Part shown: positions 461 to 14,650 of the stretch, in pieces
Layout of the letters: each line of letters starts with the position of its first letter
How positions within the stretch are numbered: position 1 is the first letter of the stretch
DNA from: Salisediminibacterium beveridgei
GTDB taxonomy: Bacteria; Bacillota; Bacilli; Bacillales; Salisediminibacteriaceae
NCBI RefSeq assembly: GCF_001721685.1
Contig: NZ_CP012502.1
Coordinates: 1,116,001 to 1,180,000 of the forward strand
Length of the DNA stretch: 64,000 bases
Direction: 5' to 3'
Notes under the pieces: generated by a model
What the model saw: only the letters and a program-made list of their open reading frames with translations
Database searches by the model: none
What the model was told of the DNA's origin: nothing
Program-made: the position numbers and the translations under genes

Positions 461-1078
461 TCAAATCAATTCCATCTGTTTGGCGATATCAAACCATTCA
501 TGTCTTGCGGATTTACCGAGTTTACGACTGATGTTCTGCCGATGTGTTTCTACGGTGTGAACAGACATGCGGTAGACCGAGGAGATGTCTTTATAGGCAT
601 AGCCCCGGACGAGCATGGTAAAGACCTCTTTCTCCTTCCTGGACAAAACCTGGGTCCCCCGGTCGGTGATGCTGGACTCAGAAGGATGGGGATAGCTTTG
701 TTTACCCGCAAGGACCAGATCCAGTCGTTCTACGATCTCTTCCTTGGTCATTTGCTTGCATAAAAAACCCGATGCATCACGCTGTCTCACCTGACGTTCA
801 AACAGGAGGTCATCACAATAGGTCAAGACTGCTGTATGTCTGATCCGGTTCGGAACAAGTTGTGAATCATGCAGCTGGTCTAGGAAGGTCAAACCGTCAA
901 GAGGCGTTGGTAGACAAAGCTCTGTGATTAATAGATCCAGCTGAAGGTCCCTTCGATCAGCCAGAAACTGCGCAGGACCCCTGTAGGTTAAAAAGTCATC
1001 GATGAAATACGACGCTTTCAATAACTGGCGTAACCCTTCACTGGTGACTTCCTGCGGATCAATGACTGCAATATTCAT
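461..1078 (-). CDS. LuxR/NarL-type response regulator with Glu at the phospho-acceptor position
   Basis: A 205-aa protein with an N-terminal receiver-like domain (about 1-120) and a C-terminal LuxR helix-turn-helix (about 142-205; LSRKEKEVF, then VHTVETHRQNISRKLGK). In the receiver the acidic pocket residue D7 and a conserved Lys in FLCK are present. The phospho-acceptor position in LLITELCLP is Glu53 instead of Asp. D-to-E at this site often gives phosphorylation-independent regulators, so it may be constitutively active or tuned by another signal. No histidine kinase lies next to it. It is transcribed divergently from the rhodanese lipoprotein gene across a 347-bp intergenic region, which makes it a candidate regulator of that gene and perhaps of the srr operon. 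That link is inference. Confidence 0.85.
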   Translation of the reverse strand: MNIAVIDPQEVTSEGLRQLLKASYFIDDFLTYRGPAQFLADRRDLQLDLLITELCLPTPLDGLTFLDQLHDSQLVPNRIRHTAVLTYCDDLLFERQVRQRDASGFLCKQMTKEEIVERLDLVLAGKQSYPHPSESSITDRGTQVLSRKEKEVFTMLVRGYAYKDISSVYRMSVHTVETHRQNISRKLGKSARHEWFDIAKQMELI

Positions 1079-1425: not shown

Positions 1426-1941
1426 ATGAGAAGAGCAAAGCAGGTAATCGGAATCGTACTGGGTACAACATTGATGATGTCAATCGCAGCATGCGGGGAT
1501 AACAATGACGTTGAAAATGCAACAGGCGGAGAAAATGAAGCAGCGGCGGCTGAAGAAAATGTAAATAATGAGGCGCCGGAAGTAGACGAAGATGAAATCG
1601 TCATGCAGGCATCAAGAGCTTATTTCAACACCTTGCCTGAAGGCAGCTACATGATGTCTGCGGATGATGTTTATGAAGCATTAGATGATGTGGTGATTTT
1701 GGACATTCGTGCTGATGGTGACTTTGCCGAAGAAGCGATCGCAGGAGCAATGAATATTCCAATGGCGCAGCTTGGCACATCCTTTGACGAGATTCCGTCA
1801 GATGAAAAAGTCGTCGTTGTCTGCTACTCGGGCCAAACGGCTTCACAGGCCATGGCAGTACTCAGAATGGCCGGGTATGATACGTATATTGCAACCGGCG
1901 GCATGAACGGCTGGAACAGTGCAGAATTACCTGTAGAATAA
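1426..1941 (+). CDS. Single-domain rhodanese lipoprotein
   Basis: A 171-aa exported protein. The N-terminal lipoprotein signal ends in SIAAC, so Cys23 should be lipidated. An acidic, Asn/Glu-rich linker runs to about residue 60 and one rhodanese domain occupies about 75-171. The domain has LDIRADGDF and an active-site loop CYSGQTA starting at Cys133, plus GGMNGW near the end. Rhodaneses transfer sulfane sulfur (or selenium) through a Cys persulfide. An upstream GTG at 1393 is in frame, but the ATG at 1426 has the Shine-Dalgarno and starts directly with the signal peptide. It is monocistronic, with a promoter region upstream and a terminator downstream. It resembles the rhodanese lipoproteins of the srr operon 2 kb away and probably works at the same outer membrane face. 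Confidence 0.88.
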   Translation: MRRAKQVIGIVLGTTLMMSIAACGDNNDVENATGGENEAAAAEENVNNEAPEVDEDEIVMQASRAYFNTLPEGSYMMSADDVYEALDDVVILDIRADGDFAEEAIAGAMNIPMAQLGTSFDEIPSDEKVVVVCYSGQTASQAMAVLRMAGYDTYIATGGMNGWNSAELPVE

Positions 1942-1990
1942 TCCGTTCTGCCCTGAATCAATCTTTTTTGACAATACATCACAACCGACT

Positions 1991-2020
1991 GAAAGCTGCG
2001 GCTATTGCTGCAGCTTTTTC
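1991..2020 (+). terminator. Rho-independent terminator
   Basis: AAAGCTGC and GCAGCTTT form a stem around a short loop, followed by TTTTTC. It ends the transcript of the single-domain rhodanese lipoprotein and separates it from the chemoreceptor gene. Confidence 0.75.
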
Positions 2021-2107
2021 CTGTTTGTGATGGTCAATGATCCTGATTCATGGTACGATTAGCTGGAATGAATGACAATTCAGTCCACTTTTGGGGGAGG
2101 TCTTTTT

Positions 2108-3604
2108 TTGACGTCAAAACAAAGAGAACTTGACGGTCGTAACAAAATGATGGTGAAGCTGTTATGGTTTGCATTTTTGCTTGGGGTGGCCAGTAATTTT
2201 ATTACAGGGGTCAATATCGAGGGGATCCTTGCCTTTTCCGGAGTCGGTATACTCGCTGTTTTGGTATTGACGGTACTGGTGTACAGGTATCCGAAAACAG
2301 TACATATGATTCAGTATCTCGTTGCGGTGAATTTCTCCATTGTGATTGTAGCCATGGTCATGACGTCACCGCGGTTATCCAACTATCTGATGGTCTATGT
2401 GGCCATTGCATTTATCACGCTTTATCACAACAGCCGGTCCATTTTATTCATGACGGTGATTGGCTTCTTTTTATCCAACGGCTTTTTTGTATTTTATCAA
2501 GATGACATGTTTTTCGGTGCAGAGATGAGCATGTTGTTCTCTCTGAATGTCATGTACATCGTGATTACCTCGACCCTGTTTGCCCAGGCAAAAATCGGTG
2601 AACGGATGGAACGGGAAAAACTGGGCTACGTTGAACAGGTCAATACGTCTCAACAGGCTTTACAAAAGATGCTCGATGACGTTCAAAAATCCATCCGGCA
2701 GCTGGCTCAGTTTACGGATACATTGAAGCAGGTTGTTACCCGGGCCGATCGCATCACAGCGGATATTGTCCAGAGTTATGAGGATATGAGGCAAGGTGTG
2801 ACAGCGTCCGCATCAAGTGTGGAGCAGATACAGGGACAGGTGGCTGAAACAACCGAAGATATCCAGGAGATTACAGATCAGTTCACCGTCGTTCAGGATC
2901 GTTCGGAGAAAACTCTGACAGCCACCAAAAATGGCCGAGAAAAAGTGGAAACGGCGAATCAGGAAATGCGACGGGTTTACAGCGGTATTGAGGATCAGAC
3001 CGGACAGATTGAAACACTGTTTAAAAGCAGCAGTGAAATCGAACAGATTCTGGGTACGATCACCGGGATTTCAGAACAGACCAATTTACTGGCCCTGAAT
3101 GCATCCATTGAAGCTGCCCGGGCGGGAGAACACGGAAAAGGTTTTGCCGTCGTGGCAGATGAAGTTCGTAAACTTGCGGAATCCTCCCAGCAGTCGACAG
3201 AACAGATTGCCGGGATCTTAAAAGAGCTCACGGATCTGATCCATCAGGTGCGAAGTGGCTCTGATGCGAATTATCAAGCTGTGAAAACGAGCTTTGATTC
3301 CAGTAAGGAAGCGGTGGAACACTTCCAGGAAATCGAACGTTATGCGGAGGGAAGTTTTTCAGATCTGAAAACACTGGAACATAACATCACTGAACTCACC
3401 TCGGTCTTCAGTATGATCCAGGAACGGACGGATGACGTCACGTCATTTACTGAAGAAGCAGCCGCCTCAGTTGAAGCGGTTCAGCAGCTGGTCTATGATC
3501 AGGAAAAACAAATGACAGAATTGTCGACTCAGACGGATGAGCTTGAAGCCATGACGAACAGGCTTGAAGCCTTATCAGACAACATGTCCTCGAAGAGCTC
3601 CTGA
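2108..3604 (+). CDS. Methyl-accepting chemotaxis protein with six-TM sensor region
   Basis: A 498-aa chemoreceptor. The TTG at 2108 is chosen because GGGGGAGG lies 7 bp upstream; the in-frame ATG at 2072 has no such site. The N-terminal ~190 residues are about six hydrophobic helices with short loops and no extracellular ligand-binding domain or recognisable HAMP. A long cytoplasmic coiled coil follows. The signalling hairpin is canonical ([20 protein letters not shown], then [13 protein letters not shown]), so it should couple to CheA/CheW. Receptors with only a membrane sensor often respond to energy or redox state. It sits between two rhodanese lipoprotein genes just upstream of the srr operon, which suggests taxis linked to the same electron acceptor. 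That role is inference. Confidence 0.9.
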
Positions 3605-3679
3605 TTTCCGTGATGCAGCAGTGAAGGATTAGTGAGCTGGCGATTTTAACGGGGAGAGTAATCATATACGTAATGAATG

Positions 3680-3716
3680 ACGGTCATGGCGGCTATTCCG
3701 CTGTGGCCGTCTATTT
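3680..3716 (+). terminator. Probable terminator after the chemoreceptor gene
   Basis: ACGGTCA and TGGCCGT pair with one G-U, enclosing an inner GCGG/CCGC helix. The following T-run is weak (CTATTT), so termination may be inefficient. Confidence 0.45.
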
Positions 3717-3765
3717 GTGTCAAAGTCATGACAATTCAAAAGTATGAACGGCTGTTCACAGAATG

Positions 3766-3791
3766 ATTTCAGTGATTTCATGATCATTTCA
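3766..3791 (+). promoter_or_regulatory. Three ATTTCA direct repeats upstream of the srr operon
   Basis: ATTTCA occurs at 3766, 3775 and 3786 (starts 9 and 11 bp apart), with CTGTTCACAG just upstream near 3753. Read on the other strand the elements are TGAAAT repeats plus CTGTGAAC, close to the TGTGAA repeats in front of the first rhodanese gene. They lie about 75-100 bp before the srrE start codon, a usual place for response-regulator binding. I could not define a convincing -35/-10 pair. Confidence 0.4.
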
Positions 3792-3864
3792 TAATTGTTT
3801 TCTATGCTTAGGATGTAGAACAATACAACAGATAATTTTTGATAATAAAGGGGAGGTTGAAGAC

Positions 3865-4935
3865 ATGAAACACAAATGGACAGGGTTGTTGATGGGGACA
3901 TTGCTGTTGACAGCAACGGCCTGTAACAGCGAAGAAGCCAGTGTCATGGCCGATGAAGAAAACAACAATGGAAACGGTCAGGAAGAGGAAACACCGGTTG
4001 AAACAGACGTATTCAATGATCTGATGGAAATGTCGGCAGCGTATATGGAGGAGCCGAATTTTAATCTGATCACAGGTGAAGAACTACACAATAAAACCAT
4101 CTTTGAAAATCCGGAAGACTATTTCATTCTCGACGTCAGGGATACGACAACGTTTATTGAAGGCCATATTCCAGGGGCAGTCAGTATACCGTTCAGAGTT
4201 TCAGGAATAGAGCATTTGTATGTGGAATTACCGGAAGACAAAACAATTTATGTCGTCTGTTTTTCAGGGCACACGGCCAGTCAGACGGTTGGCATGCTGA
4301 ATGCAGCCGGCTATGATGCGAAAGCACTGCAATTTGGAATGGGCGGTTACGCAGCAGGAACCGGACTCGGTTCAGATATTCCTGGAGGACCTGCTGATTT
4401 ACCGGTCGTCACAACGGGCTATGAGTTGACGGAAACGTATGCGTTGCCTGAGGTGATGAGTGATGCTGATGACATGACTGCAGCGGCGTTTGAACAATCT
4501 CAAGTCATGCTTGATAAGGAACTGCCGGCTGTGATGGGCGCGCCAGCAGTGAAAGAACTGATCGATGAAGGAGAGCTGGATGAGTATCAATTGATCGATA
4601 CACGGCTTGAAGAGCATTACTCTCAGGGACATGTCGAAGAAGCGGCGAACATCCCTTATAACGAACTGTTTACAGAAGAGAACTTATCCTTACTCGATCC
4701 GGATAAGATGACGATCGTGATCGGTTATAACGGGTACGATGCCTCACAAATTACAAGATTACTCGGACAGCTTGATTACAAAGCAGCACCGCTTGCCTAT
4801 GGCATGAGCATCTGGAGCGGTGATGAAGAGGTCGTTGGAGATTATCTGTTTGACTTCTCCAAGGTATACGATCTGCCGGTTACTGAATTGAAATTTGATA
4901 TGGATTCTGGCGATGTTGAAGCAGGATGCAGCTAA
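3865..4935 (+). CDS. srrE: Tandem-rhodanese lipoprotein, SrrE-like
   Basis: A 356-aa lipoprotein with lipobox TATAC (Cys20) and an Asn/Glu-rich linker to about residue 50. It has two rhodanese domains. The first (about 68-170) has LDVRDTTTFIEGHIPGA and an active loop CFSGHTAS at Cys132. The second (about 225-320) keeps IDTRLEEHYSQGH, but its active-site loop reads GYNGYDAS, so the catalytic Cys is Gly and this domain should be inactive. GGGGAGG precedes the ATG. It is the first gene of the operon, 18 bp before srrA. The size fits my memory of the 38-kDa SrrE of B. selenitireducens. Its role is unproven; handling of reduced sulfur or selenium at the cell surface is plausible. Confidence 0.8.
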   Translation: MKHKWTGLLMGTLLLTATACNSEEASVMADEENNNGNGQEEETPVETDVFNDLMEMSAAYMEEPNFNLITGEELHNKTIFENPEDYFILDVRDTTTFIEGHIPGAVSIPFRVSGIEHLYVELPEDKTIYVVCFSGHTASQTVGMLNAAGYDAKALQFGMGGYAAGTGLGSDIPGGPADLPVVTTGYELTETYALPEVMSDADDMTAAAFEQSQVMLDKELPAVMGAPAVKELIDEGELDEYQLIDTRLEEHYSQGHVEEAANIPYNELFTEENLSLLDPDKMTIVIGYNGYDASQITRLLGQLDYKAAPLAYGMSIWSGDEEVVGDYLFDFSKVYDLPVTELKFDMDSGDVEAGCS

Positions 4936-4953
4936 CGAAGGGAGCGAATCAGA

Positions 4954-7170
4954 ATGGCAAAATTAAAACGACGAACATTTCTAAAAGCTTCTGCCGCGAC
5001 AGCAGCTGCAGCAGCTGTACCATTTCAGATGACGATGGGGGACTTCAAAAAAGCAGCAGCAGAAGGAGAAGACAGAACCATTTCTTCCACCTGTAACGGC
5101 TGTGCGAGCATGTGCGGGATCATTGCACATGTAAAGAACGACCGCCTCTGGTATGTCGAGGGACATCCGGTACACCTGAAATCCGGCGGACGTCTTTGTG
5201 CACGGGGTCACGGAATGGCTGCAGATATCTATGGGAAAGGCCGCGTCCAGGGACCGATGAAAAAAGTGGCTGAAGGCGAATTCGAACCAATCTCCTGGGA
5301 ACAGGCGTTTAAAGAAATTGGTGAAAAAATGGCAAGCCTGCGAGATCAGTACGGCGGCAATAACTTTCTGTGGTTGGAACACGGGGTCAGAGGCAAGCGT
5401 TACGCGGATCCGTTGCTTGATCGAATGGGTTCTTCCAACTACATTACGCACTATTCCACCTGCTTCACATCGAAAACGAATGCTTGGCAGCACATGGTCG
5501 GCAGTATGCCGGCAGGAGACCATGAACATTCTAAGTATATGATTTTTGAAGGTCGGAACTTTGCCGGTGCGATTATTCCAAACGGAATGAAGAAAATCCT
5601 GAAAGCAAAAGAGAATGGCGCAAAAATCGTCGTGATTGACCCGAGATACACAGAAATGGCAAAAATTGCCGACGAGTGGATCCCGATCAGACCGGGTTCC
5701 GACCTGGCACTTCGACTGGGGATGGCACATACGCTGATCTCAGAAAATCTCTATGATAAGACATTTGTAAACAAGTATGTGACGGATTTCGATGAATTTT
5801 GGAATATGAATAAAGACAAAGATGCGGAGTGGGCCGCTGAAAAAACCGGTATAGAAGCGGAAACGATCAGACGGATTTCCCGGGAGTTTGCTGAAAATGC
5901 GCCGCAGGCTTTCGTTGAGCCTGGTTGGCATGGCCTGCATGCTCACTATTTCAACAGCACACAAACGGCACAGATGGGTGTTATCCTCAATGCGCTCGTA
6001 GGGAATTTCTTTCAGCGTGGCGGTCTTATGCCATCTGCCGGTGTTGAATTTGGCGAATACATGCAAACGGATGTTGAAATGGTCGAAAAGGGACCGCGAG
6101 CAGATGGTGCCGGAGTTGAAGGCGAGCATATGACGGTGGAATCAAGCCGTGGGATTGCTCAATCTGTTCCGGAGATGATCGATAAGGGACGAGTCAAATC
6201 CGTGTTCATCTATCATTTCAACCCGGTTCGTACCGCTCCCGATCCGGAGTATCAAAAGAAGATTGCCAATGCCGAGCTGGTGGTTTCGATCCCGGTGGAC
6301 TGGAACGAAACGTCCGTTTATGCAGCAGATTATATTCTTCCGGAGAATTATTACCTGGAAAGAACCGAAGTGCCAATGCCAGTTTCCGGACATATTTCCC
6401 ATGACTGGCCGCAAATTTCAATCCGGCAGCAGGTGACCAACCCGTTGCATGATACCTTGCCGCTCCTCGACATTATGAGAGGCATTACAAAAGAGATGGG
6501 CTATGACAATCTCTATGATTACACGGTGGATGATGAAATCGCTGCAATGCTAGAACCGACTGGCGTTACACCGGAAGAGTTGAAAGAAAAAGGTACGGTT
6601 GAACTGCGAACGAATAAAGTGGAACCGGGATTCCCGGTCAACATGTCCGGTCAACCGGATCTCGGGACATTCAGCGGCAAGATCCAGTTTTCCGCCGAAC
6701 TGTTCAAAGTGGAAGGGAAGCGGGGCGTTCCGACCTGGATCCCGACGAAAGTGGAGCCTGATCTGAACAATCCTGAAGAATTCAGATTGATCCACGGGAA
6801 ACAGCCGTATCATTCACACTCAGTGACGAGCACCAACGCATCCTTACTTCGCATCACGGAAAAATATAAAGGCGAAGCAATGTGGATCAATGCACAGCGG
6901 GCAAAGGATCTGGGGATTGAAGATGGCGACACCGTATCGGTCAAATCGGACATTGCCGACAAAACCGTTCCTGTCCATGTGACTCAGCTCATACACCCTG
7001 AATGTGTCTGGATTCCATCCGCATATGGCGCATTCTCTCATAAAATTAAAGAAGGGTATCAATTAGGGATTAACTACAATGATTTTATCCCGATGATGAT
7101 CGAACCGTATTCAGGATCCACGATGTCCCAGGAAGTCGTTGTCCAAGTAAGAAAAGGTGGTGAAGCGTAA
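4954..7170 (+). CDS. srrA: Molybdopterin oxidoreductase catalytic subunit, PsrA/PhsA clade, probable respiratory selenite reductase SrrA
   Basis: A 738-aa DMSO-reductase-family enzyme. A twin-arginine signal (KRRTFLKASAA, residues 5-15) targets it across the membrane folded. The [4Fe-4S] motif is Cys47-x2-Cys50-x3-Cys54-x27-Cys82. Cys170 in HYSTCFTSK is at the expected molybdenum-ligand position, as in the PsrA/PhsA/ArrA group. The C-terminal part carries the pterin-binding fold (about 600-730). Length is typical of PsrA/PhsA and short for ArrA. Its neighbours srrB-srrC-srrD and two rhodanese lipoproteins give the same order as the published srrEABCDF operon, whose enzyme reduces selenite to elemental selenium in anaerobic respiration. 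Polysulfide or thiosulfate reduction cannot be excluded from sequence alone. Confidence 0.85.
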   Translation: MAKLKRRTFLKASAATAAAAAVPFQMTMGDFKKAAAEGEDRTISSTCNGCASMCGIIAHVKNDRLWYVEGHPVHLKSGGRLCARGHGMAADIYGKGRVQGPMKKVAEGEFEPISWEQAFKEIGEKMASLRDQYGGNNFLWLEHGVRGKRYADPLLDRMGSSNYITHYSTCFTSKTNAWQHMVGSMPAGDHEHSKYMIFEGRNFAGAIIPNGMKKILKAKENGAKIVVIDPRYTEMAKIADEWIPIRPGSDLALRLGMAHTLISENLYDKTFVNKYVTDFDEFWNMNKDKDAEWAAEKTGIEAETIRRISREFAENAPQAFVEPGWHGLHAHYFNSTQTAQMGVILNALVGNFFQRGGLMPSAGVEFGEYMQTDVEMVEKGPRADGAGVEGEHMTVESSRGIAQSVPEMIDKGRVKSVFIYHFNPVRTAPDPEYQKKIANAELVVSIPVDWNETSVYAADYILPENYYLERTEVPMPVSGHISHDWPQISIRQQVTNPLHDTLPLLDIMRGITKEMGYDNLYDYTVDDEIAAMLEPTGVTPEELKEKGTVELRTNKVEPGFPVNMSGQPDLGTFSGKIQFSAELFKVEGKRGVPTWIPTKVEPDLNNPEEFRLIHGKQPYHSHSVTSTNASLLRITEKYKGEAMWINAQRAKDLGIEDGDTVSVKSDIADKTVPVHVTQLIHPECVWIPSAYGAFSHKIKEGYQLGINYNDFIPMMIEPYSGSTMSQEVVVQVRKGGEA

Positions 7171-7709
7171 TGGCCCGATATGGACTGTTAATTGACTCAA
7201 GAAAATGTACAGGTTGTCATGCTTGCAGCATTGCCTGTTCAACGTATAACGAGCTGGAGCCGGAAGTGACGTATAACCGGCTGGAGTTTGTCGAAAGCGG
7301 CACGTATCCGAATGTGAAAATGGACATCCTGCCGATTCAATGCATGCACTGCGACGATGCACCTTGTGTCAAAGTGTGTTCAACACAGGCAACATTCAAA
7401 CAAGAAGAGGATGGCATTGTTGCTTTTAATCCGTCAAAATGTACAGGTTGTAAAGCGTGTATGGCAGCTTGTCCTTATGATGCAAGAGCGTTGAATGAGG
7501 CACGTCTGGCAGAAAAATGCCGCTGGTGCCCAGAGATGCTTACGCAGGGGAAACAGCCTGCCTGCTCGAGCACCTGCATGAATGAAGTCCGTCTCTTCGG
7601 TGATCTGGACGATCCGGACAGTGAAATCAGTAAGAAGATGGCTCAGTTTACAACAACGCAACTTCTTCCGGAAGCCGGCACGAAGCCGAGAATCTGGTAC
7701 ATCAAATAA
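7170..7709 (+). CDS. srrB: Electron-transfer iron-sulfur subunit (four [4Fe-4S]), SrrB
   Basis: A 179-aa ferredoxin-type subunit of the complex iron-sulfur molybdoenzyme family. Its ATG overlaps the srrA stop by one base (TAATG), indicating translational coupling. Four Cys clusters are visible: CTGCHACSIAC near the N-terminus, CMHCDDAPCVKVC, CTGCKACMAACPYDA, and CRWC with a distal CSSTC. These should hold four [4Fe-4S] centres that carry electrons from the membrane subunit to the molybdenum site. It has no signal peptide, so it is presumably co-exported with the Tat-bearing catalytic subunit. Similar to PsrB/PhsB/DmsB. Confidence 0.92.
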   Translation: MARYGLLIDSRKCTGCHACSIACSTYNELEPEVTYNRLEFVESGTYPNVKMDILPIQCMHCDDAPCVKVCSTQATFKQEEDGIVAFNPSKCTGCKACMAACPYDARALNEARLAEKCRWCPEMLTQGKQPACSSTCMNEVRLFGDLDDPDSEISKKMAQFTTTQLLPEAGTKPRIWYIK

Positions 7710-7725
7710 AGAGAGGTGAGAAACT

Positions 7726-8889
7726 ATGCTGAATCGTAATATATGGTACGGAATAGCCGGCGTGCTGATGATCTTTGGTATCGTTGGTATTGCAAATATC
7801 TTTATCCACGGTGAACACGTGATGGGCACCAGTAACTATGTGCCATGGGGATCCTTGATTGGTGCTTATGTTTTCTTTGTTGCCATCAGTACAGGGCTGA
7901 CGTTCCTGTCATCAATGGTGCACGTATTCAAAATCGAAAAATTCGCCTTTCTGACGAAGCGGTTAACGATGGCCTCGATTGCCACACTGTTGATGGGTTT
8001 TGTCATGATCGGTGTCGAACTGGGAAATCCATTGGCGATGGTGTATATTCTTGTGACACCGAACTGGACTGCTCCGATTTTCTGGATGGGTGCGTTCTAT
8101 GGTTTATATCTCTTGCTTCATGTCATTGAGTTTTTCTTTCAGATTAAAAACAATCATCAGATTGTCAATACGATCAGCCCGTTTGTTCTCGGTGTCGGCA
8201 TTGCAGCACAAAGTACACTGGGCGCCGTATTCGGGCTCAGTGTGGCAAGAGGACTATGGAATACGGCGTATCTGTCGATCTTCTTTCTCTTGATGGCGTT
8301 CGTATCAGGTCTGGCTGTTGCCATGATTATGGCGTTCTTCCTCTCGAAGACGAAAGTCATGCCGGAAGAAGACCGCAACAAGCTGCCGGGGATCTATCCA
8401 TTGATCACGAAATTGACCATGGGGCTGCTTGCAGTCGGGATCATTTTTGTCACCTGGAACTGGATCTATGCCTTATACAGCGGGAACACAAACCGATTGG
8501 CGTCCATGCAGTTAATGGTCGACGGTCCTCTCGCCGTTCCTTACTGGGTTCTTGAAGTCGGATTTGTGTTCCTGATTCCGCTTCTGATTTTGGGGCTTGT
8601 AAAAGTCAAGAAGGCGTCCACGATGTTAACGACCGGGATTGTACTCTTAATCGGACTGTTTGCGATGCGGATCATTCTGACCTTTGCCGGACAAATGGTA
8701 CCTCTTGAAGTGGTGACCGGGTCTTTGACGATGAATGAACTTCGCGATGTGTCGATTCTCTGGTCAGAATGGGCGACAATGATCTTTGGTCTCGGTGGAT
8801 CTGTCATGCTTTATCTTCTCGGGGAACAGTTCCTGGATTTGAATGAAGATGATCATCATGAGGAAACAGAAAGTACGAAAGTATCTTGA
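7726..8889 (+). CDS. srrC: NrfD/PsrC-family membrane anchor and quinol oxidase subunit, SrrC
   Basis: A 387-aa integral membrane protein with roughly ten hydrophobic segments, preceded by GAGAGGTG. It matches NrfD/PsrC anchors in length and in position after the four-cluster subunit. These proteins bind menaquinol without heme and pass electrons to the iron-sulfur subunit at the membrane face. The hydrophilic C-terminal tail ([17 protein letters not shown]) is acidic and should be cytoplasmic. It lies 16 bp after srrB and ends 35 bp before the chaperone gene, inside the same operon. Confidence 0.88.
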
Positions 8890-8924
8890 ACAGACATACT
8901 CAACCACAACCAGAAGGTGATCAT

Positions 8925-9545
8925 ATGACGATTGCAGATCGGCTTCAAGCCTATACAGAACTCGTAAAATTGATCGGGGAATTATACAAGTACCCGGATG
9001 ACGAAGTGGAACAGGCGATTGCAGAAGGCGTATTGGATCAGGAAGTACAAGGGTATCTTGCTGATATTCCTGAAATTCCGATTGAATCGCTTCGTTCTTT
9101 CAAAGATTTACGCGATGCTTCAAACACAGCGAAAAAACAGTTCATGACCGCTTACTCAGGGATTAGTGCACCGTTTCATCCGCCGGTGGAATCCCTTTAT
9201 AAACCATGGAGCGTTGATCCAGGGGATCAGACAGGGCTCTATAACAAAAAAGGATTCTACATGGGTGATTCTGCGCTTCATATGAAGCACCTTTTGGCAC
9301 ACTATCAGATTCAGGTGCCAAAAGACTATGAGATGATGCCCGATCACCTGGCAATCACGCTGGAGTTTTATGCGATGCTGATCGAGCAGGACCTTGAAGC
9401 TGCAGAAGTTTTTCGTCGGGATCATCTGAACTGGCTTGATGATTTTCACAAGAACCATCAGGAAATAGACGATGTACCTTTTTATGATTATCTGCTCAAC
9501 GTACTGATCGGCACGGTTTCGGTCAGTCCGAAAGAGCTCACTTAA
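8925..9545 (+). CDS. srrD: TorD/DmsD-family molybdoenzyme maturation chaperone, SrrD
   Basis: A 206-aa, mostly helical cytoplasmic protein. The ATG at 8925 is chosen because AGAAGGTG precedes it; an in-frame TTG at 8886 overlapping srrC would add 13 residues without a site. The family signature near residues 135-145, [11 protein letters not shown], is present, as is VESLY in the middle. TorD/DmsD proteins bind the Tat signal of the apo-enzyme and hold it until the molybdenum cofactor is inserted, so its client should be SrrA. It sits between the anchor gene and the last lipoprotein gene. Confidence 0.85.
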
Positions 9546-9561
9546 GAAAGGAGTGAACAGA

Positions 9562-10818
9562 ATGAAGAAATGGACAATCAGTTTCATTTCGCTTGCAGGT
9601 GTTCTTGCACTCAGTGCATGTGGCTCTTCGCAAGCAAGCGAATCAGAACCCACTTCGTTTCTGCCAATGGAACCCGATACATCTCCTTATATTATCGAAA
9701 CGGAAGAAGAGGATGACGGTCCGGAAGACGTTCCATACAACGAGGATTGGGATTATATTGATACCGCACAATTATCTCGGTTAATGGATGGATTACCGGA
9801 GATCAGTCAGGACCGGTCCACTTATGACGAGGTACCGCCTGAATGGGATAAGGTCGCACTGATTGACAGTCGCCCACCTGAAGTATATGCAGCCGGACAC
9901 ATTAACGGAGCCATCAATATCCCGGACAGCAACTTTGACAATTACAGTGACCTTCTTCCGGAGGATTTGGATACGAAACTGATCTTCTACTGTGGCGGTC
10001 TGCACTGTCCGTTAAGTGGCAGTTCGTCAGAAAAAGCTGAGGAAATGGGTTATGAGAATACCTACGTTTATCAGGAAGGAACGCCTTTTTGGAAAGAGGA
10101 AGGAAATTATTTTACGGTAACACCGGAATATGTGGAAGAACAGATTTTGGAATCCAATGTTGTACGAGACGATACTGAACCTGTCATGATTATTGATACA
10201 AGAACCTACGCCGGCTATTTCGGTGAACATATTCCTACTGCTGTATTTTGGGATGACACACAATACGGTTCGAAGTATCAAGGGTTTGCACCAGCAAATA
10301 AAGATGCAGAGATCATCATCTACTGTGGCGGTTTCTTCTGTCATAAGAGTCCCCAGTTGGCGAACGAATTGCTCGCAGATGGTTATACAAATGTGAAGGT
10401 GCTGTCAGGCGGAATGCCGGCCTGGAAGCAGGCTGGACTGCCGACATTCGGCATGGACACAGCGGATTCAGAGTTTGATGTGTCGGCCGGGAAAGTGGAT
10501 CGATCCGTTTCAGCAGATGAATTTGATGAATTTGTCGATTCCGGTGCAACCATTGTCGATGTTCGCGGTGACAGTGAAGTGGCCGGGGGAATGATTGATG
10601 GTGCGCTTCATATTCCGGATGGTGATATTCATGCCAACGATCCAAGCGTTGAGGAGAAATTGCCGGATGACTTGAGTACAACATTAGTGATACACTGTGC
10701 CAGCGGTGCCCGGGCTGCAGGTGTTGTGGAAAATATTGCAGATTTCGGCTATGAGGAAGTATATTATTGGGACGGCGGAATCTCGATTTCCGAAGATGGA
10801 AGCTATACGCTTGACTAA
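9562..10818 (+). CDS. srrF: Triple-rhodanese lipoprotein, SrrF-like
   Basis: A 418-aa lipoprotein (lipobox LSAC, Cys20). AAAGGAG ends 9 bp before the ATG at 9562; the in-frame GTG at 9553 would touch it. Three rhodanese domains follow an acidic linker: domain 1 with IDSRPPEVYAAGHINGA and loop YCGGLHCPLS, domain 2 with IDTRTYAGYFGEH and loop YCGGFFCHKS, domain 3 with VDVRGDSEVAGG and loop HCASGARAAG. All three catalytic Cys are kept. The first two loops carry a second Cys five residues later (CGGxxC), unusual for rhodaneses and able to form a disulfide or bind a chalcogen pair. It is the last operon gene and fits the 45-kDa SrrF I remember from B. selenitireducens. Confidence 0.82.
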   Translation: MKKWTISFISLAGVLALSACGSSQASESEPTSFLPMEPDTSPYIIETEEEDDGPEDVPYNEDWDYIDTAQLSRLMDGLPEISQDRSTYDEVPPEWDKVALIDSRPPEVYAAGHINGAINIPDSNFDNYSDLLPEDLDTKLIFYCGGLHCPLSGSSSEKAEEMGYENTYVYQEGTPFWKEEGNYFTVTPEYVEEQILESNVVRDDTEPVMIIDTRTYAGYFGEHIPTAVFWDDTQYGSKYQGFAPANKDAEIIIYCGGFFCHKSPQLANELLADGYTNVKVLSGGMPAWKQAGLPTFGMDTADSEFDVSAGKVDRSVSADEFDEFVDSGATIVDVRGDSEVAGGMIDGALHIPDGDIHANDPSVEEKLPDDLSTTLVIHCASGARAAGVVENIADFGYEEVYYWDGGISISEDGSYTLD

Positions 10819-12796: not shown

Positions 12797-12868
12797 AGAA
12801 TGTGTGATGATCGGGTTTTCATATGTGAAACATGGGTACTACAGCTTGCCAGACTGGGAGAGAAGCAA

Positions 12869-14650
12869 ATGAGCCGGAAATCAAAAAGTGTCGAATTGTT
12901 GAACGAGTGGATCGGTGAGTTCTTAAATACTGAATATACATACGCACATACGAGCTGTGATTTAACCAGGCAGCTGTCTTTGATCACGGAAATAATCGGA
13001 GAGTCTCTTAGTATCCTTGTGACGGATGATCAAGACAGGCTGGTCTATGCAAGTGACAGCTATTGTTCACTTTTCACATACGAGAAAGAGTTCCCATCAG
13101 GAGCGCACATCGATGATGTGATTCAATTCAGATTTTTGAATGATCACGATATGCGGGCATTGAATCAAGCACGTCAGTCCTCTTCGCATGTTTCGTTTGA
13201 CTGCGTTCAATCCACAGCGTTTGGAAAGCAGATTTCCTATAGAACATCGTTCGTTCCGATCAAAGATCACAAACAGGTGCATAGAGCATCCCTTTATGTC
13301 ATCGCCGATCAGAAGCCGGATAAGCAGGGATCTGTTGTGCAACAGGAGGTCGTGTACGATCAGATGACTGGACTGAAAAACCGTGATCAATTCGAACTGG
13401 AAGTGGAACAAAAATGTCAAAACCAGCATGAAGATGCTCAGTTGGCGTTGCTATTTTTCGATCTGGACCGGTTTAAATATTATAACGCAACGCTGGGGCA
13501 ATTAACGGGGGACAGGCTTTTAAAAGAAGTGGCTACTCGACTCACGGCCATCCAGGATCAGCGAATGGAGATCTATCGTTTCGGTGGAGACCAATTTGCG
13601 ATCTTGATTGAAGGCTACCCAAGTATGACGTATATTCATAAAGTGGCAAAAGACGTCTGTCATTTTTTCAAGCAACCATTTGTTCTCTCGAATCATGAAT
13701 TGAAAGTATCTGCAAGCGTCGGAGTGTCTTTATTGCCGGACACTGCAAAAACTAAGGGAGATCTGATTCACCAGGCGGAGATGGCGATGCAGGTATCGAA
13801 AGAGAAAGGCCCGTCAACTTATCATGTCTACATAGAGGAAATGCATTGTCATTACACCAAACAATTGACGCTGGAAAAACGTTTGAATAAAGCGATCGAA
13901 GAAAAAAGCTTTCAGCTTCATTATCAGCCACAGTATGATTTTTACAGCCAGCAGGTCGTCGGGTTCGAAGCCTTGATCCGCTGGTTTGATGAAGACCTGG
14001 GCTATGTGCCACCCGATCAGTTCATTACAGTCGCGGAAGAGACCGGCCTGATTATTCCCATCGGAAGACAAGTACTGGATCAGGCTTGTCAAAAGGGGAA
14101 AGACTGGTACGATAATGGCCTGAATATTCGTGTAGGAGTGAATGTTTCTCCGGTGCAATTCCAGCATCCTGATTTTATTCAATCGGTGAAATGGACGTTA
14201 GTAAAGACAGGACTGCCAGCAGAACGCCTGGATATTGAAATCACCGAGAATGTTCTCTTGTATAATAAAGAGGCCTGCATGAACACCCTCGAACAGCTCA
14301 AAGCCATCGGGGTGCATATTTCCATTGATGATTTTGGAACAGGGTTCAGTTCACTGAGTTATCTCCGTACGTTTCCCGTGGATATGCTGAAAATCGACCA
14401 ATCCTTCGTCAGGGAACTGAAGAGAAATCACAATGATCAGGCGATTGTCACTTCCATTATTCAGCTGGCGCATAATATGGGCATGAAAGTGATAGCGGAA
14501 GGTGTGGAGACAAGTGATTCATTGAATTTCCTCATGGATCAGCACTGTGATCAAATGCAGGGTTACCTCTACAGCAGGCCGATTCCGCCGGAACAATTAC
14601 CATTATTTTTAACCGAAAATCGTGTCATGCATCGATCTTCTGAAACATAG
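12869..14650 (+). CDS. PAS-GGDEF-EAL protein, probable c-di-GMP phosphodiesterase
   Basis: A 593-aa cytoplasmic protein. The ATG at 12869 follows GGGAGAG and lies downstream of the predicted transcription start; the longer frame from 12800 does not. A PAS-like sensor occupies about 35-150, GGDEF about 165-320 and EAL about 340-580. The GGDEF signature is GGDQF (239-243), with Gln replacing the Glu needed for cyclase activity, so diguanylate cyclase activity is doubtful. The EAL domain looks complete: EAL at 367-369, NVSPVQF, ITEN, DDFGTGFSSLSYL, KIDQSFV and AEGVET. The likely activity is c-di-GMP hydrolysis, perhaps with GTP sensed by the degenerate GGDEF. It is monocistronic with a terminator, next to a two-component system. 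Confidence 0.88.
   Translation: MSRKSKSVELLNEWIGEFLNTEYTYAHTSCDLTRQLSLITEIIGESLSILVTDDQDRLVYASDSYCSLFTYEKEFPSGAHIDDVIQFRFLNDHDMRALNQARQSSSHVSFDCVQSTAFGKQISYRTSFVPIKDHKQVHRASLYVIADQKPDKQGSVVQQEVVYDQMTGLKNRDQFELEVEQKCQNQHEDAQLALLFFDLDRFKYYNATLGQLTGDRLLKEVATRLTAIQDQRMEIYRFGGDQFAILIEGYPSMTYIHKVAKDVCHFFKQPFVLSNHELKVSASVGVSLLPDTAKTKGDLIHQAEMAMQVSKEKGPSTYHVYIEEMHCHYTKQLTLEKRLNKAIEEKSFQLHYQPQYDFYSQQVVGFEALIRWFDEDLGYVPPDQFITVAEETGLIIPIGRQVLDQACQKGKDWYDNGLNIRVGVNVSPVQFQHPDFIQSVKWTLVKTGLPAERLDIEITENVLLYNKEACMNTLEQLKAIGVHISIDDFGTGFSSLSYLRTFPVDMLKIDQSFVRELKRNHNDQAIVTSIIQLAHNMGMKVIAEGVETSDSLNFLMDQHCDQMQGYLYSRPIPPEQLPLFLTENRVMHRSSET

Follow-up and report, generated by a model that had tools for sequence, protein, structure and literature searches.

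A C-terminal cysteine or predicted selenocysteine is conserved in SrrE, a rhodanese lipoprotein encoded next to the molybdoenzyme SrrA

The srr locus of Salisediminibacterium beveridgei

The subject of this work is a 64,000-nucleotide stretch of the Salisediminibacterium beveridgei genome (assembly GCF_001721685.1, contig NZ_CP012502.1, forward-strand positions 1,116,001 to 1,180,000), hereafter called the window, which, as judged from its sequence, carries a SrrEABCDF-type respiratory molybdoenzyme locus. Particular attention was paid to the lipoprotein SrrE, whose extreme C-terminus holds, in each of the 39 loci compared, either a cysteine or an in-frame UGA codon, which we predict to be read as selenocysteine (Sec).

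All six srr genes of the window are located on the forward strand. SrrE (3865..4935) is a lipoprotein (Cys20) with two rhodanese-fold domains, of which domain 1 has an active-site-loop cysteine (Cys132) and domain 2 has none, and its tail ends with EAGC355-S; the codons for the penultimate Cys355 and the last serine occupy positions 4927..4932, i.e., the site at which 13 of 39 relatives have UGA (predicted Sec) followed by one codon. The next gene encodes SrrA (4954..7170), the catalytic subunit binding molybdenum bis(pyranopterin guanine dinucleotide) and exported by the twin-arginine translocation (Tat) pathway, in which a Tat signal, one [4Fe-4S] site and a cysteine ligand of molybdenum were recognized (Pfam Molybdopterin, Molydop_binding, Molybdop_Fe4S4, and TAT_signal). 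Then come the 4x[4Fe-4S] electron-transfer subunit SrrB (7170..7709; Pfam 4Fe-4S dicluster domains, 16 cysteines), the NrfD-type membrane anchor SrrC (7726..8889; Pfam NrfD), and the TorD-like chaperone SrrD (8925..9545; Pfam Nitrate_red_del), which has 206 amino acids (aa) when counted from the ATG at 8925, as in Salisediminibacterium selenitireducens (the open reading frame (ORF) caller starts it at TTG 8886). The last gene encodes SrrF (9562..10818; 418 aa when counted from the ATG at 9562, whereas GTG 9553 opens the listed ORF), a lipoprotein containing three rhodanese domains, the loops of which read CGGxxC in domains 1 and 2 and CASGAR in domain 3. A preliminary description of this DNA had placed a molybdoenzyme, a 4x[4Fe-4S] subunit, an NrfD anchor, and a TorD chaperone between two multi-rhodanese lipoproteins, and both the gene positions and the Pfam assignments agree with it.

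Upstream of srrE, the window encodes a single-domain rhodanese lipoprotein (1426..1941, forward strand; lipobox Cys23, active-site Cys133), for which the name RhdL is coined here. It is not adjacent to srrE, since the gene of a methyl-accepting chemotaxis-type protein (MCP; 2072..3604, forward strand; Pfam MCPsignal) and two terminator-like hairpins recognized by consensus match only (1991..2018 after RhdL, and 3679..3711 between the MCP gene and srrE, both on the forward strand) intervene, and RhdL likely forms its own transcription unit. In all, 15 terminator-like hairpins were found by consensus match versus a shuffle mean of 9.1; the promoter scan gave 16 sigma-70-like sites versus 16.9 expected and was dropped, and Rfam at the gathering threshold gave zero matches in the window. 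A LuxR-type response regulator (461..1078, reverse strand) is encoded divergently from the locus.

Pfam recognized one Rhodanese domain in 1426-1941, two in 3865-4935, and three in 9553-10818, and all three proteins have a lipobox cysteine. The genome (3,582,268 bp, one contig) has 23 Rhodanese matches, so that the six falling within these 9.4 kb are far above chance. The number of three rhodanese lipoproteins with six domains, given in the preliminary description, was therefore confirmed by the Pfam count, with the reservations that the third lipoprotein is set off by the MCP gene and the hairpins, and that only five of the six domains retain the cysteine of the active-site loop, which in SrrE domain 2 reads IGYNG and is without the catalytic residue.

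Comparison with S. selenitireducens and the SrrA clade

As the S. selenitireducens reference we took the locus L046 of genome G002, which represents a different species of the same genus. Its gene order is the same, including RhdL, the MCP gene, and the divergent response regulator, and the alignments, among them those of SrrA, SrrE, and SrrF proposed earlier, gave identities of 90.2% (SrrA), 91.1% (SrrB), 84.5% (SrrC), 74.3% (SrrD), 77.6% (SrrE), and 82.1% (SrrF), as well as 70.8% (RhdL), 64.8% (MCP), and 58.4% (response regulator) for the flanking genes. The masses predicted for SrrE, SrrC, SrrD, and SrrF of G002 (38.4, 43.1, 24.2, and 45.6 kDa) fit the published ones (38, 43, 24, and 45 kDa; PMC12481199), the fit being poorer for SrrA (82.2 kDa unprocessed versus 80 kDa) and SrrB (19.9 versus 17 kDa). 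The window thus has the same order and similar sizes as SrrEABCDF of S. selenitireducens MLS10, with no structural difference found, and the earlier assignment to Srr is upheld. The earlier assumption that the lipoprotein at 1426-1941 widens the known set had to be abandoned, as RhdL occurs in the same place in S. selenitireducens; PMC12481199 counts six genes in the operon, and RhdL and the MCP gene accompany it in both loci. RhdL was also rejected as a part of a conserved module: among the 41 loci described below it was found upstream of srrA only in the window (G000) and in L046, and was not seen in the other 39, where the upstream reach was at least 3.6 kb in 27, 3.4-3.6 kb in nine, and only 1.0-1.7 kb, too short to tell, in L009, L019, and L020.

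The protein search with SrrA scored 7995 candidates, 257 of which were over the threshold; among the best 120 of these 257, 96 sequences reached at least 838 bits, and the next score was 579. Besides the window and L046, the SrrA-clade set of 41 loci comprised 26 of the 32 in the first locus set and 13 obtained by whole-genome searches. Left out were L026-L029 (<600 bits) and L031 and L032 (no or partial match); extra loci from genomes already represented were uncounted, and L081 and L082 were omitted because their scores suggested that they duplicate L006 and L022. The tree was built with 40 clade members (L023 was omitted because of its split srrA) and seven of the next-scoring proteins. The 40 SrrA proteins form one clade versus these seven with support of 100/100, and the SrrA of the window groups with that of L046, also at 100/100. 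Cys170, which aligns with Cys173 of the Thermus thermophilus structure 2vpw, as well as His143, His326, and His331 are invariant in all 40 members, while the seven next-scoring proteins have D, N, or Y in the His143 column and R, K, or (in one) H in the His326 column.

The Srr enzyme of S. selenitireducens reportedly shows reductase activity with selenite and none with thiosulfate. The clade includes the protein of L095 (P0051), which NCBI names SrrA and which comes from Desulfuribacillus alkaliarsenatis, whose strain AHT28 is described as using sulfur, thiosulfate, and arsenate, and neither selenite nor selenate (PMC3386488). A selenite-inactive enzyme grouped with thiosulfate or polysulfide reductases is what the preliminary description held to speak against its proposal, and the Desulfuribacillus clade member answers to this in part. 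Moreover, selenite respiration through this enzyme type had been identified only in MLS10 as of a 2025 review (PMC12481199). For both reasons the name SrrA should be read with care across the clade.

Rhodanese genes around srrA

In all 41 loci, srrA has one or more rhodanese genes no farther than 5.5 kb away, which indicates that the link between the two is old; near eight lower-scoring SrrA relatives (seven distinct, one on a 5.3-kb contig), no rhodanese was seen. Upstream of srrA, a rhodanese gene is present in 39 of the 41 loci (two-domain in 37, one-domain in L010 and L011), and the gap between srrE and srrA amounts to 6-112 bases in 33 of the 38 listed cases, those outside this range (L016, L020, L023, L091, and L092) being mostly read-through or a split gene. 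The two remaining loci, L094 and L095 of Desulfuribacillus, have no SrrE upstream of srrA and a Sulf_transp gene instead (L094:2176-3351, L095:2022-3239); the L094 copy, which is adjoined by a LysR regulator, scored below the cut-off versus the YedE/FdhT and TsuA models. In L007 and L012, two Clostridia, a formate dehydrogenase alpha gene (NCBIfam Fdh-alpha over cut-off; L007:5835-8519, L012:5924-8593) stands directly upstream of srrE.

The downstream rhodanese, SrrF, was recognized in 38 of the 41 loci (three-domain in 24, two-domain in 14), and the contigs of L009, L016, and L020 end before it; additional downstream rhodanese genes occur at other places in L003, L013, L094, and L095. Both CGGxx[C/U] motifs are present in 24 of the 25 three-domain srrF genes. 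The third-loop pattern is matched by 22 of them as well, and L008 and L013, which depart from it, have a cysteine in that loop.

The C-terminal residue of SrrE

The SrrE set comprised 39 loci after exclusion of L094 and L095, which have no SrrE; L009/L078, L024/L088, and L005/L093 are near-copies. In the alignment the rhodanese loops of SrrE are degenerate, as the domain-1 cysteine is present in 19 and the domain-2 cysteine in seven of the 39 proteins. The extreme C-terminus (Cys355 of the window), on the other hand, has a cysteine in 26 and an in-frame UGA in 13; with UGA counted as a residue, this position is penultimate in 37 and antepenultimate in two (L007 and L012). In all 13 UGA-form genes the UGA is followed by exactly one codon (Ser or Gly) and then a stop, and no further UGA occurs within SrrE. 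A cysteine after each rhodanese domain is present in 13/13 UGA forms versus 2/26 Cys forms, and these cysteines are possible resolving partners.

The UGA forms belong to a number of Clostridia, Halanaerobiia, and Negativicutes, and on the SrrA tree their distribution requires three changes, at least two of them forced by well-supported branches. The AlphaFold model of SrrE (25-sequence alignment) is confident for about residues 42-348 and has the rhodanese fold, the best 50 of 556 Foldseek matches being all rhodanese-fold or rhodanese-domain proteins. At residues 349-356 the predicted local distance difference test (pLDDT) falls below 50, and by this value alone Cys355 is placed on a probably flexible tail.

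Evidence for selenocysteine at the UGA codon

In all 13 UGA-form srrE genes, a hairpin of 6-9 bp starts 14-18 nt past the UGA, and at least three pair types occur at every one of the six inner positions of these stems. The minimum free energy of the sequence behind this site averaged -10.1 kcal/mol in the UGA forms and -1.5 kcal/mol in the 26 Cys forms, the two sets of values being fully separate. Energy alone was dropped as a proof of a bacterial Sec insertion sequence (bSECIS), since hairpins at or below -5.5 kcal/mol are too common behind UGA-ended ORFs, and position and loop were therefore added to the criterion. By the stricter criterion, set after the data were seen and applied without a curated bSECIS model (stem of at least 6 bp beginning at +13 to +19, with a G among the first two bases of the loop), a hairpin was recognized in 13/13 UGA forms and 0/26 Cys forms; within the same loci, it was also recognized behind 5 of 87 other ORFs ending with UGA and 56 of 3728 UGA triplets.

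All 13 genomes with a UGA form have one or more of tRNA-Sec, SelB, and SelA over cut-off. The joint occurrence of UGA form and Sec machinery was rejected as a discriminating feature, because most Cys-form genomes also have this machinery: tRNA-Sec and SelB were both over cut-off in 18 of the 21 Cys-form genomes tested, and L007, L012, and L016 had neither. The genome of the window probably uses selenocysteine, as both tRNA-Sec (G000:C1:1846763-1846855) and SelB (1844713-1846575) were over cut-off; its SrrE is still of the Cys form.

A similar substitution is seen in SrrF, where an in-frame UGA replaces the second cysteine of the domain-2 CGGxxC in L008, L013, and L078, each time with a hairpin after it. 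In SrrF of L010 (14541-15797), there is a cysteine at the second CGGxxC site and a hairpin-like sequence where the UGA-form hairpin stands, perhaps a relic of a Sec form. Sec was also sought in SrrA and SrrB and rejected: no UGA occurs inside the SrrA match in 41/41 loci (for L023, the longer part of the split gene was used), and of the 40 loci with a SrrB match 39 are free of UGA within it, the exception, L050, being a 16-residue fragment with UGA where the ordinary ORF call gives an open 179-aa srrB. Apparent srrB gaps in L015, L017, and L024 are ORF-caller artefacts; in L023 (10001-12210; Bacillus sp. ISL-45), srrA is either split over two frames or affected by a sequencing error.

We predict from these patterns that SrrE is an unrecognised selenoprotein family. 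The NCBI entry for the Natroniella SrrE (P0135; 356 aa, "rhodanese-like domain-containing protein") stops at the UGA and ends with ...GDGG, the S. selenitireducens one (P0123) is named "respiratory selenite reductase-associated lipoprotein SrrE", and further SrrE-like proteins appear, by their protein records, to end just short of the expected UGA site. The literature, as far as its available text goes, describes no C-terminal Sec or Cys arm in SrrE; an earlier mention in the primary Srr paper (Wells 2019) or in the two Haft selenoprotein papers is possible.

Proposed role of SrrE and SrrF

In the proposed mechanism, electrons would pass from quinol (at SrrC) through the four Fe-S clusters of SrrB to the exported molybdoenzyme SrrA, which in S. 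selenitireducens reduces selenite, and the flanking lipoproteins SrrE and SrrF would be dedicated partners of SrrA. SrrE may be regarded as a membrane-tethered scaffold of two rhodanese folds with a flexible tail bearing the penultimate cysteine or predicted Sec. The chalcogen (Se or S) most likely becomes attached to this thiol or selenol and would be carried as an adduct to or from SrrA, by analogy with DsrC serving DsrAB. SrrF, which has two loops of the CGGxxC type and one that reads CASGAR, would most probably act outside the cell by unloading this adduct or reducing it. A conserved residue on a probably flexible tail, together with the logic of DsrC, is what suggests that SrrE is a chalcogen-carrying or redox arm. 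What the sequences themselves show is the operon, the tail residue kept in all 39 SrrE proteins, the association of UGA with the hairpin, and the optional character of the rhodanese cysteines.

On balance, we favour as the best explanation that SrrE and SrrF are dedicated partners of SrrA and that the tail Cys/Sec of SrrE is the chalcogen-carrying arm of a SrrEABCDF-type locus. The idea of a chalcogen relay, raised in the preliminary description, survives in this form, with the change that the residue kept throughout SrrE is the C-terminal Cys/Sec and not the rhodanese cysteine. A more far-reaching version, to be taken as tentative, is that SrrE is an extracytoplasmic, lipid-anchored analogue of DsrC, whose penultimate Cys/Sec takes the covalently bound chalcogen into the active site of SrrA or away from it, SrrE and, in some lineages, SrrF being unrecognised selenoprotein families. 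If so, SrrA would handle protein-bound Se or S and not only free selenite, and a chalcogen-respiring enzyme would depend on a genetically encoded selenocysteine in its partner.

Several observations weigh against the favoured explanation. Low pLDDT is common at C-termini, and the 13 UGA cases represent only about two to three independent changes. The hairpin criterion was drawn after the data were seen, and hairpins at or below -5.5 kcal/mol stand behind 57 of 88 other UGA-ended ORFs, two of the 88 having in addition a stop two codons on. The search for Sec factors was uneven (SelB in 8 of 9 genomes asked, tRNA-Sec in 7 of 9, SelA in 7 of 7, of the 13), and, as the window genome and the 18 of 21 Cys-form genomes have the machinery, Sec is not obligatory and the machinery does not predict the form. 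Since L094 and L095 have the clade enzyme and no upstream SrrE, SrrA can work without SrrE in Desulfuribacillus. Finally, the insertion of Sec into SrrE, the chalcogen on its tail, and the contact with SrrA are predictions from sequence, and so are the flexibility of the tail, its carriage of the chalcogen, the sequence of transfer steps, and the role of SrrF.

Alternative explanations

The alternatives are partly compatible with each other, and their probabilities need not add up to one. The strongest of them, which we still consider unlikely, is a classical relay, in which SrrE, SrrF, and RhdL would act outside the cell as sulfurtransferases of the Sud kind, binding polysulfide sulfur or selenium at the cysteines of their rhodanese loops and passing it to SrrA, the C-terminal cysteine being secondary. 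The loop cysteines kept in five of the six window domains and the well-kept loops of three-domain SrrF (24/25) are consistent with it; SrrE, however, lacks the domain-1 cysteine in 20 and the domain-2 cysteine in 32 of 39 loci, the tail Cys/UGA is absent in none, and the UGA of SrrE always stands in the tail, never in a loop. Still less probable is a redox tail without chalcogen carriage, with Cys or Sec passing electrons or disulfides, so as to keep SrrF or SrrA thiols reduced or to reduce bound Se adducts. The -U-G/-U-S tails resemble the end of thioredoxin reductase (GCUG in the mammalian enzyme), the cysteine pair accompanies the UGA form in 13/13 cases, and three-domain SrrF has CGGxxC pairs, but Pfam finds no flavin or electron-donor domain in SrrE or SrrF of the window, so that SrrB or SrrA would be needed as the donor.

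We see just as little ground for a purely protective function, in which external rhodaneses bind reduced Se or S, shielding the cell wall or seeding elemental selenium, without any catalytic part. The lipoboxes of all three window rhodaneses, by which these proteins are placed outside the membrane, agree with it, and so does the active Srr band of S. selenitireducens, which reportedly contains a single 80-kDa protein. A rhodanese-like gene, extH, is also present in the selenite/tellurite-linked ext cluster of Geobacter (PMC5877670). The position of srrE close before srrA, and the rhodaneses not seen near the lower-scoring relatives, favour a partner role but are not decisive. Far less probable than any of these is that the UGA is an ordinary stop, SrrE ending one residue before the cysteine and the next stop and hairpin being due to chance or a terminator. 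NCBI ends the Natroniella SrrE at this codon, and a stop two codons on follows four of 87 other UGA-ended ORFs (two of 88 when a hairpin at or below -5.5 kcal/mol is also required). Against it, the second stop and the stricter hairpin occur together in 13/13 genes versus 0/87 control ORFs (a post hoc criterion), the stems vary in sequence yet keep their pairing, the Sec factors are present, and the residue lost would be the sole thiol site, the lipid anchor aside, kept in all 39 proteins.

Significance

The SrrE tail bears on the way in which respiratory molybdoenzymes of the Psr/Phs/Srr group cope, on the outside of the cell, with chalcogens that are reactive or poorly soluble. The operon is known for selenite respiration; our analysis points to an overlooked part of it, the SrrE tail as a Se- or S-carrying arm. 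A single conserved residue of the tail, found in nature both as Cys and as UGA, offers a direct mutational test and, if the prediction is true, gene models stopping at the UGA, as seen for the NCBI Natroniella entry, would be corrected and a candidate selenoprotein family added. The results also call for caution with the name "respiratory selenite reductase SrrA", which is in use for a species that reportedly does not respire selenite.

Neighbouring genes and other observations

Just upstream of the window (G000:C1 about 1111300-1116300; L045:5324-10271), there are genes of a phosphate-type ABC transporter (PBP_like_2, two permeases, ATPase) and PhoU, and ORFs similar in size precede the S. 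selenitireducens locus. A large protein resembling a diguanylate cyclase/phosphodiesterase (family assigned by eye), followed by a two-component system, is encoded at 12800-14650 of the window, downstream of alanine dehydrogenase. Elsewhere in the genome, two single-domain rhodanese genes that are the same in score and length (G000:C1:2186593-2186859 and 2201232-2201498) lie about 14.6 kb apart and are likely a recent duplication.

Comparison with known systems

SrrA shares the Mo/Fe-S/NrfD module with PsrABC and PhsABC, and its best solved relative is T. thermophilus 2vpw (E 1.3e-85), with the cysteine Mo ligand aligned. The window protein scores 403 bits versus the cut-off of 694 of the NCBIfam PhsA equivalog, i.e., below it, and SrrA forms its own clade in a tree with seven of the next-scoring proteins and without any characterised PsrA or PhsA. 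A second PhsA/Psr-like molybdoenzyme with an Fe-S subunit is encoded after the srr locus in L022 (17194-19915).

The remaining systems were compared partly by description only. ExtH of the Geobacter ext cluster is a rhodanese-like product of a selenite/tellurite reduction cluster, which is, however, a cytochrome/porin system (PMC5877670). Sud of Wolinella succinogenes is a periplasmic protein serving a Psr-type Mo enzyme; it is described with a single cysteine, while the kept thiol of SrrE is on the C-terminal tail and not in the rhodanese loop. In DsrC, a strictly conserved penultimate cysteine on a flexible C-terminal arm binds sulfur and reaches DsrAB (PMC3397948). Among the best 50 of the 556 Foldseek matches there is no sign of homology of SrrE to DsrC/TusE, and the SrrE model matches rhodaneses and not the DsrC fold; the likeness is functional only; DsrC is also described as cytoplasmic, in contrast to the lipid-anchored SrrE.

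A 2026 review lists rhodanese selenoprotein forms 1-5 as UxxS, UxxG, CxU, UxxG, and TsoB UxxxxU (PMC13188914). These are internal-type motifs, and, as far as the available text of that review goes, SrrE or a rhodanese with C-terminal Sec is not among them. The CGGxxU layout of SrrF comes close to the UxxxxU of TsoB, its NCBIfam TsoB match (87 bits) being below the cut-off of 805. What the UGA form of SrrE has in common with the rhodanese selenoproteins is the rhodanese fold combined with a (here predicted) Sec.

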